Assembly (NCBI GenBank): GCA_003224145.1
Contig: QHYN01000238.1
Coordinates: 1-41,639, forward strand
Length of the DNA: 41,639 nt
Direction of reading: 5' to 3'
DNA from: Acidobacteriota bacterium
GTDB lineage: Bacteria > Acidobacteriota > Terriglobia > Acidiferrales > UBA7541
The notes under the pieces are model-generated. The model searched no databases. It was given only the letters and a program-made list of their open reading frames with translations, and was not told the origin of the DNA. This document shows, one piece after another, positions 8,818-10,276 of this stretch (the first letter of the stretch is position 1; the number at the start of each line of letters is the position of its first letter). Both the position numbers and the translations under genes were made by a program.

Positions 8818-8948
8818 GGCCGCCTCCACTGGCTCTGACGATACCCCGATTCTTGACCTCCGAAAAGACCCCTATTCTGCTATCATCGGGCGTGCGGCCA
8901 GCTCCATGGGACGGCTGACGCGGCACAACTTCTGAGGAGGAATAGCCA

Positions 8949-9515
8949 ATGCGAAGAGGACTCTCCGTCCTACTGTTGGGTATGCTCGCTGTGAGTGCAG
9001 CACCCTCCGTCAACCGGCTCTGGGGGCAAGCAGAAAAGAAAGACGCCATGCCCGAACCAACCGTCAAGGTCGGGGACATGGCGCCAGATTTCACCTTGAT
9101 GGACACCAAGGGGAAGCAAGTTTCGCTGCACGACTTCCGCAGCAAGAAAAACGTCGCACTCGCGTTTTATATCTTTGCGTTCACCGGTGGTTGAACGAAG
9201 CAAATGCAGAACTTCCAGCAGAACTTGCAAAAGCTGGAAGCTGCAGACACCCAAGTATTGGGTGTAAGCATGGACAGCATGTTCAGCAATGGCGCCTGGG
9301 CTGAAAAAATCGGCGTCACTTTCCCCTTGCTAAGCGACTGGGGCGGCGACGTCACCAAGCAATACGGCCTCTACAATCCCAAATACAAAGCGGCGCGCCG
9401 CATCAACTACCTGATCGACAAGAGCGGCAAAGTCATCGAGATGCAGATCGACAGCGAGGCCATCGATCCAACCAAGATCGTGACGCTCTGCGAGCGCCGC
9501 AAATCCGAGAAATAG
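8949..9515 (+). CDS. Peroxiredoxin (AhpC/TSA-like), probable selenoprotein with UGA-encoded Sec82
   Basis: The gene is read through an in-frame TGA at 9192-9194, giving 188 aa. Before it lies a signal-like N-terminus, then VGDMAPDFTLMDTKGKQVSL and FAFTGG; after it, TKQMQNFQQ continues the same peroxiredoxin fold in the same frame (VLGVSMDS, FPLLSDWGG, INYLIDKSGKV). In peroxiredoxins the residue at the TGA, third after the threonine (TxxC), is the peroxidatic cysteine, so selenocysteine is the natural reading. A stem-loop begins 10 nt after the TGA. The only cysteine is C181, a possible resolving residue. AGGAGG precedes the ATG. A nonsense mutation is the alternative, but the intact downstream frame and exact position argue against it. 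Confidence 0.85.
9192..9245 (+). promoter_or_regulatory. UGA codon and predicted bacterial SECIS hairpin
   Basis: After the UGA, TGCAG (9205-9209) pairs with CTGCA (9241-9245) and, past a two-A bulge, CTTCCAGC (9212-9219) pairs with GCTGGAAG (9233-9240). That makes 13 base pairs with a 13-nt loop starting AG. The loop begins 26 nt after the UGA, within the distance usual for bacterial SECIS elements, and has a G in its first two bases. Such hairpins bind SelB and recode UGA. Confidence 0.75.
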
Positions 9516-9718
9516 CTCGCGCCAACACGCCGCCAAAACGGAATTCCCTGAAGTTCCAGGGAGAGTCTGCCTGCAGTTCCGACTTTCCATGCCGTTCTGC
9601 CCTTGGTCTGCGGCGGAACCGCCGCAAATTCTTCATCGGCATTCTCCAAGTCCCAATCGTCGCTTGACAAGAATCTTTTTGTACTCTGGTTCCCCCATTT
9701 GGAATAAGATAGTGCCTT

Positions 9719-9805: not shown

Positions 9806-10276
9806 ATGCGAAATCAAAAAGGATTCTCTCTGATTGAGCTGCTGCTGGTCGTGGCGGTCATCTTAATCATTTCGGCGATTGCCGTACCTAGTTTTCTGCG
9901 TTCGCGCATGCGTGCTCATGAGGCGAATACGGTTGCTGCGCTCCGGGTCATCGTTACCGGTGCTATTGCCTATTCGAGCGCCTACCCGAATCTCGGGTAT
10001 CCTGCACAACTGACGAATCTGGGCGGTGCCAATCCCTGTACTCCTGCACCCAGCCAAGCCTGCTTGGTGGACGATACCCTGGCGCAGGGGCTTAAGGACG
10101 GCTATACGTTCCAATTCACGGGGGATGGCCTTACGCCATCCTATAGTTTCACTCTTACGGCAACTCCTCAGGTCGTCGGCTCTTCGGGTCAAAATATGTT
10201 TTGTACAGACCAGACGGCTGTGGTTCATTACGACTCAACCGGGGCCGGCTGCAGCAACGTCAGCCCCACCTTGTAA
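9806..10276 (+). CDS. Type IV pilin / type II pseudopilin-like protein
   Basis: 156 aa with AAGGAGAG before the ATG. A class III leader MRNQKG is followed by FSLIELLLVVAVILIISAI, the prepilin peptidase site and hydrophobic N-methylated helix of type IV filament subunits, including the glutamate at mature position 5. The globular part has four cysteines that may form one or two disulfides (NPCTPAPSQAC and C183-like pair near the end, FCTD and GCSN). Such proteins assemble into pili or secretion pseudopili in the envelope. No assembly genes are nearby, so this is probably an orphan major or minor pilin. Confidence 0.85.
   Translation: MRNQKGFSLIELLLVVAVILIISAIAVPSFLRSRMRAHEANTVAALRVIVTGAIAYSSAYPNLGYPAQLTNLGGANPCTPAPSQACLVDDTLAQGLKDGYTFQFTGDGLTPSYSFTLTATPQVVGSSGQNMFCTDQTAVVHYDSTGAGCSNVSPTL

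Follow-up and report, generated by a model that had tools for sequence, protein, structure and literature searches.

A predicted exported seleno-peroxiredoxin in an Acidobacteriota genome and its TGA-containing relatives

The codon TGA normally acts as a stop. A peroxiredoxin gene that carries an in-frame TGA at its catalytic position raises the question whether this codon encodes selenocysteine (Sec) and, if so, what kind of peroxiredoxin is made. The gene analyzed here lies in a stretch of 41,639 nucleotides, henceforth the window, corresponding to one contig (C333) of the 4.79-Mb genome of a soil bacterium of the Acidobacteriota (359 contigs, 95% complete). According to the original prediction, the TGA replaces exactly the catalytic cysteine of a TxxC motif and is flanked on both sides by peroxiredoxin coding sequence. 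Both points hold: codon 82 lies in the motif TGGU (...FYIFAFTGGUTKQM...) and is aligned with Cys in 44 relatives, and a single match to Pfam AhpC-TSA (PF00578; E 2.3e-35, 121.7 bits, curated cut-off 26) spans residues 41-164 of the read-through product, covering model positions 1-123 of 124. The motifs CxxC and UxxC are both absent from the protein. Gene callers had been expected to miss or split the gene, and the table 11 open reading frame (ORF) listing indeed breaks it into two ORFs, 81 and 103 aa long, while none of the 15 families listed from NCBIfam 20.0 passes its cut-off with the window protein; such genes are therefore likely mis-annotated. The features of the gene are collected in Table 1.

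Table 1. Features of the predicted seleno-peroxiredoxin gene, in window coordinates.
Feature	Position	Strand	Basis or remark
Predicted seleno-peroxiredoxin coding sequence	8949..9515	+	188 residues including presumed Sec82; stop TAG 9513-9515
Likely ribosome-binding site AGGAGG, 8 nt upstream of ATG	8935..8940	+	sequence
Signal-peptide-like N-terminus, residues ~1-28, hydrophobic core	8949..9032	+	hydrophobicity heuristic
Ile75, at Pro of peroxiredoxin motif Pxxx(T/S)xxC	9171..9173	+	column counts
Thr79 of TxxU motif	9183..9185	+	Thr 89, Ser 2 among 91 TGA rows
TGA at the peroxidatic site, presumed Sec codon 82	9192..9194	+	frame, alignment of relatives
SECIS-like hairpin, 5 + 8 pairs, loop 9220-9232	9205..9245	+	RNA fold prediction, shuffles, recoding
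Arg151, aligned with Arg116 of Mycobacterium tuberculosis AhpE	9399..9401	+	alignment
Cys181, only other cysteine besides codon 82, candidate resolving residue	9489..9491	+	predicted last helix, column counts

The TGA codon, its relatives and the selenocysteine machinery

A search for relatives within the phylum covered 396 genomes. Its 64 top-ranking rows (E 2.2e-27 or better) each contain a single TGA; in G203 the matched stretch contains a TAG too. A first group of 52 loci (L031-L082) comprises the window's own copy, 29 loci from the 396-genome search (L032-L060) and 22 others (L061-L082); all 52 carry TGA at the codon corresponding to residue 82. Where the original prediction had reckoned with close relatives showing a different residue and a decayed frame, the 51 nearest relatives keep the TGA and the frame is kept. 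Together with 60 regions from further down the match list and three of the genome's own genes, 115 loci were obtained, with 91 TGA and 24 TGC or TGT codons at this position; nine listed rows (eight of one genus, and G151) were left out of the 60-region draw. In 20 further regions without TGA, lower in the list, the residue is Cys throughout (20/20), and at the level of sequence these additions agree with the reading as an exported seleno-peroxiredoxin. All 135 aligned loci, window included, comprise 91 with TGA and 44 with Cys, a proportion that is not a phylum frequency because the loci were chosen by similarity to the window. The Cys orthologues suggested as a check are thus what every non-TGA locus aligned turned out to be (44/44). 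One of them (L119, two internal stops) was left out of the tree and the column counts, leaving 43 Cys rows.

The nearest named relatives, at 80-88% identity to the window protein, are Acidobacteria metagenome-assembled genomes, mostly from subdivision gp2. A plasmid search returned 81 records with relatives, counted by similarity alone and all below 60% identity. Neighboring genes are common to the window and 13 of the 22 loci L061-L082, namely the close relatives L061-L072 and L082, and not L073-L081. Among the 29 distant loci (L032-L060; ~1.5 kb of flank each), none matches a window neighbor that could represent a conserved operon partner. Downstream of the window gene (9806-10276) lies a gene judged by eye to be pilin-like (start FSLIELLLVV), with two matches, in relatives L067 and L068. 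One genome (G157) contains two copies of an exported-type TGA peroxiredoxin (L047 and L083).

Substitution rates were compared without gaps on either side of the TGA. Against 12 close relatives (L061-L072), the 50 codons before it gave dN 0.02-0.12 and dS 0.66-1.54 (dN/dS ~0.01-0.18), and the 100 codons after it dN 0.03-0.07 and dS 0.50-0.85 (dN/dS ~0.06-0.13). The more distant L073, L076 and L078 have dN values of 0.14-0.25 and dS values of 1.0-1.6, with saturation in two of the six cases. Purifying selection acts on the coding sequence before and after the TGA. With a TGA at the peroxidatic site and a frame conserved on both sides, the gene has the hallmarks of a TxxU Sec-peroxiredoxin.

The predicted Sec machinery is present in the genome as well: selA (C90, E 1.2e-169), selB (C178, E 3.5e-109) and selD (C231, E 8.4e-103) were all found, as was a tRNA-Sec (C342; 66.4 bits) with anticodon TCA according to ARAGORN, and the lack of selABCD that would have told against the prediction is not observed. 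A second match to RF01852 (C158), just over cut-off, was rejected as a tRNA-Sec, since ARAGORN calls it tRNA-Trp.

Other genes of this genome also carry a TGA. An in-frame TGA occurs in selD (L028; ..VKAAGUAAKLSP..), at the presumed active-site position, which makes selD itself a selenoprotein candidate. An AhpC-TSA gene on C354 (L003 1501-1884; ..PKANTSGUTIEA..) represents a second TxxU peroxiredoxin, in which an N-terminal extension was not found and C181 is absent. A further AhpC-TSA gene on C341 (L005 1501-1890), with its TGA in ..SADWUPFCKGQ.., probably encodes a UxxC peroxiredoxin-like selenoprotein; it has no tblastn match to the query and stands outside every count.

The hairpin downstream of the TGA

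A 13-bp hairpin starting 10 nt after the TGA, with a suitable loop, had been proposed, and it is present in the predicted fold of positions 9192-9260: a 2-nt bulge separates the 5 and 8 pairs, and the large loop (13 nt) has G as its second base. The predicted RNA thus shows the stem-loop directly after UGA and the G in the apical loop that characterize a bacterial SECIS. An Rfam search of 8900-9550 gave no match at E up to 1, which is weak evidence either way because, to our knowledge, Rfam has no family for bacterial SECIS elements in general.

The window hairpin (-18.2 kcal/mol) has a z-score of -2.5 and is matched by 3 of 200 dinucleotide shuffles; single-locus values are not decisive, because the 54 nt after codon 82 in 24 Cys loci have a median z of -0.88 (mean -0.46), with 11 of the 24 below -1 and 3 below -2. 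In the codon-aware test used for the SECIS assessment, in which the 18 codons after the TGA were recoded synonymously, 12 of 5000 sequences fold as well as the window. Over the 91 TGA loci, the mean z of the 54 nt after codon 82 is -1.85, with 73 loci below -1 and five above 0 (L045, L048, L094, L099, L136); grouped by identity band, the means are -2.39 (24 loci), -1.61 (20) and -1.68 (47). Three stretches further down (90 loci each) have mean z-scores of 0.18, -0.01 and -0.17.

Pairing was also evaluated in alignments. Across the window's group (29 distinct sequences), 94.8% of the upper-stem cells are paired, a level reached in none of 500 shuffles, and sliding the partner by one column reduces pairing to 43.1% or 54.3%. 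The consensus fold recovers seven of the eight upper-stem pairs; in 8 of the 29 sequences, stem positions 28 and 42 do not pair. Two of the eight stem pairs are changed on both sides, 91 of 500 shuffles do as well, and partners slid by -1 give five two-sided cells versus four in the real register; as related rows are not independent, such pair-change counts overstate the number of events. A distant group (37 sequences) has another hairpin layout, with a 3-nt loop; the same caveat applies to its pairs 24-32 (UA 29, CG 8) and 21-36 (GC 16, CG 5, AU 3, unpaired 13). Considering codon, selection, machinery and hairpin jointly, we regard the window protein as almost certainly a selenoprotein.

Active-site motif, second cysteine and N-terminus

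The peroxiredoxin active-site motif is given as Pxxx(T/S)xxC in the available part of PMC8945050. In the window protein Thr79, Sec82 (from TGA) and Arg151 are in place, and the Pro is replaced by Ile75. A conserved Arg is a feature of the peroxiredoxin active site; Arg116 of AhpE is presumably this residue, and the Arg at position 151 is shared by all 43 Cys rows and by every TGA row except the truncated L082 (90 of 91). Position 75 in the 91 TGA rows is V in 43, P in 26, I in 20, S in 1 and A in 1, compared with Pro in all 43 Cys rows.

C181 occurs in 74 of the 91 TGA rows; among the 43 Cys rows compared, in a search that covered the window's phylum (396 genomes), no Cys form with C181 was found. 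We refer to these 74 rows plus L082, which is cut off before that site, as the C181 set. All 75 loci have TGA, and the motif Pro is absent from 64 of them (Val, Ile or Ser there). The set does not form one supported clade in a tree of 114 rows (91 TGA and 23 Cys, built without the 20 later Cys loci), on which the Sec/Cys label needs at least 7 changes. The window falls within a 62-row branch of modest support (85/75) that is entirely TGA and holds 61 of the 65 Pro-less rows, its 62nd row (L036) having Pro; we therefore do not count Pro loss in the TGA rows as many independent events.

N-termini were scored by a hydrophobicity heuristic, not a signal-peptide program. A hydrophobic N-terminus (score above 1.8) was counted by hand in 72 of the 75 set loci; of the 16 TGA rows outside the set, L139 alone has one, and 8 had no callable extension. 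Judged by this heuristic only, export of the window protein is highly probable. The signal-like N-terminus, the lone Cys181, the missing motif Pro and the restriction of the near relatives to TGA were all absent from the original prediction.

The alignment contains additional TGA peroxiredoxin groups (TPVU, TPTU and others: L112, L123, L126, L132, L137, L142, L096, L105-L108, L113); the TPVU/TPTU-type groups lack C181 and have no hydrophobic N-terminus by the heuristic. Nested among the TPVU-group forms, beside L096 (support 95/86), is a Cys form, L115 (G009:C12:85995-86420), a possible Sec-to-Cys change in a peroxiredoxin.

Function, competing explanations and distribution

We consider it very likely that the window gene encodes an exported seleno-peroxiredoxin, and expect with good confidence, from fold and site, that it acts as a peroxidase. 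TxxU peroxiredoxins are already known, and the gene adds a variant among them. In the excerpts available, they appear as an established Sec family (PMC13188914, PMC9312934, PMC1088965), with 91 members in 78 organisms in a 2016 count (PMC5029168); for Acidobacteria, three families and four selenoproteins are given (PMC1794560), and for Occallatibacter riparius three known selenoprotein genes (PMC12013277). The main texts of the 2022 and 2026 reviews contain no word beginning Acidobacter. Within the titles and abstract openings searched, the C181 set is undescribed; supplementary files fall outside that scope, and the set may be listed somewhere.

Four known systems resemble the window protein in part. 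PrxU of Eubacterium acidaminophilum (NF040737) shares the peroxiredoxin fold and Sec at a peroxidatic TxxU (PMC13188914, in excerpt); the window protein, however, scores 68.8 bits against that model's cut-off of 270, and its signal-like N-terminus, its lone cysteine near the C-terminus (Cys181) and the Ile/Val in place of the motif Pro may be further differences. PrxQ/BCP (NF006960) is the best NCBIfam profile by E-value (6.1e-25), yet the score is 88 bits against a cut-off of 140, and the Cys relatives compared keep Pro and lack C181 (43/43). The UxxC thiol-disulfide oxidoreductases of the peroxiredoxin-like type, for which C341 carries a candidate, share Sec on an AhpC-TSA fold (PMC13188914, in excerpt) but have UxxC where the window protein has TxxU. 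AhpE of M. tuberculosis shares the fold and the aligned Arg: the closest solved structures to an AlphaFold model of the protein (mean pLDDT 69.9, 16 sequences) are AhpE (1xvw, 4x1u; E 3.8e-15, 30-33% identity), followed by Sulfolobus Bcp4, which places AhpE and archaeal Bcp-like proteins closest among the solved folds; by sequence, the first solved match is 2ywn, a peroxiredoxin-like protein. AhpE has only one Cys according to the part of PMC8945050 available. Its peroxidatic residue is Cys, not Sec, and no equivalent of Cys181 is named, whereas the window gene has TGA and a conserved Cys181 with a putative resolving role, in contrast to the AhpE subfamily, which has only one Cys and no resolving Cys. 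We see the protein as AhpE-like and probably exported, perhaps with C181 as its resolving residue.

In the mechanism that we propose, SelB and tRNA-Sec would decode UGA 82 with the aid of the downstream hairpin, as gene content, conservation and RNA statistics suggest, and the signal peptide would direct export of the product. Given the fold and the site, the substrates that Sec82 would reduce in the envelope are hydrogen peroxide or organic peroxides. Cys181 may then resolve the selenenic acid by forming a selenenylsulfide, either inside one subunit or across two. A thioredoxin-like protein of the envelope, itself supplied by a membrane protein of the CcdA/DsbD type, may in turn reduce this bond. 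A candidate for the membrane protein is the DsbD_TM (CcdA-like) gene at C349:26078-26848, ~250 bases before an AhpC-TSA match; in the flanks of the 22 and 29 loci, no conserved neighbor names a reductant. More speculatively, the inherent acidity of a selenol may make loss of the motif Pro tolerable, and would also suit an envelope exposed to acidic soil.

The resolving role of Cys181 is a hypothesis that we somewhat favor. A one-selenol seleno-peroxiredoxin, in which a small thiol or thioredoxin-like protein resolves the selenenic acid as in AhpE and Cys181 serves another role, would be in keeping with the nearest solved folds. Cys181 sits in the last helix of the model (174-187), which is of low confidence; pLDDT falls below 50 both at loop 77-83 and at 170-185, the regions of Sec82 and Cys181. 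We nevertheless consider this alternative unlikely, as the only other cysteine of the protein is kept in 74 of 75 set loci, the last being cut off, and in none of the 43 Cys rows. Absence of the motif Pro from the window protein and from 65 of 91 TGA rows would also fit an exported selenoprotein with a peroxiredoxin fold whose main role is in thiol-disulfide or other redox chemistry, not in peroxide reduction; retention of Thr79, Sec82 and Arg151 and the lack of CxxC and UxxC make this rather improbable. That the TGA is a true stop, in a pseudogene, an assembly or sequencing error or two short proteins, accords with the two ORFs of the table 11 listing and is highly improbable given the TGA shared by 91 loci, the purifying selection before and after it, the SECIS-like signal and the full Sec machinery. 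Reading of TGA as another amino acid, by a tryptophan code or suppression, found no support and has a negligible probability in view of Cys in 44/44 non-TGA relatives and the tRNA-Sec with anticodon TCA.

The distribution of the C181 set was also compared with that of selA. The 53 set loci from the 396-genome search lie in 52 genomes (hand count), of which 48 have a strong selA match (E 6.9e-91 or better); over all 396 genomes, 250 pass the selA cut-off. The four exceptions are G140, G226 and G314, with none listed, and G266, with a weak match (completeness 91%, 77%, 88% and 72%, respectively). In the window's class, the selA cut-off is passed by 10 of 47 genomes. Six genomes have a close homologue (E-value 1.3e-54 or lower), and all six belong to these 10 (2e-5 by a hand-calculated hypergeometric test that ignores kinship). 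Among the 37 genomes of the class that lack selA, the best match was inspected in 8 (L147-L154) and is each time a Cys peroxiredoxin that keeps Pro75 and lacks C181; the other 29 have best matches no better than E 2e-21.

The branch appears to be widespread and to exist, so far and in the sampled genomes, in the selenium form only. With 75 loci, no Cys form in the sampled genomes, an altered active-site motif and a fixed second cysteine, these ideas are testable in one small enzyme. A broader proposal, which we hold to be evenly balanced between true and false, is that of an ancient, exported, Sec-only branch of Acidobacteriota peroxiredoxins, in which a genome without Sec machinery would lack the gene instead of carrying a Cys form, and in which selenium would have relaxed the near-universal motif Pro and the resolving C181 would have arisen with it. 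If this Sec-only reading is true, part of the Acidobacteriota, a dominant soil phylum, would depend strictly on selenium chemistry to defend the envelope against peroxides.
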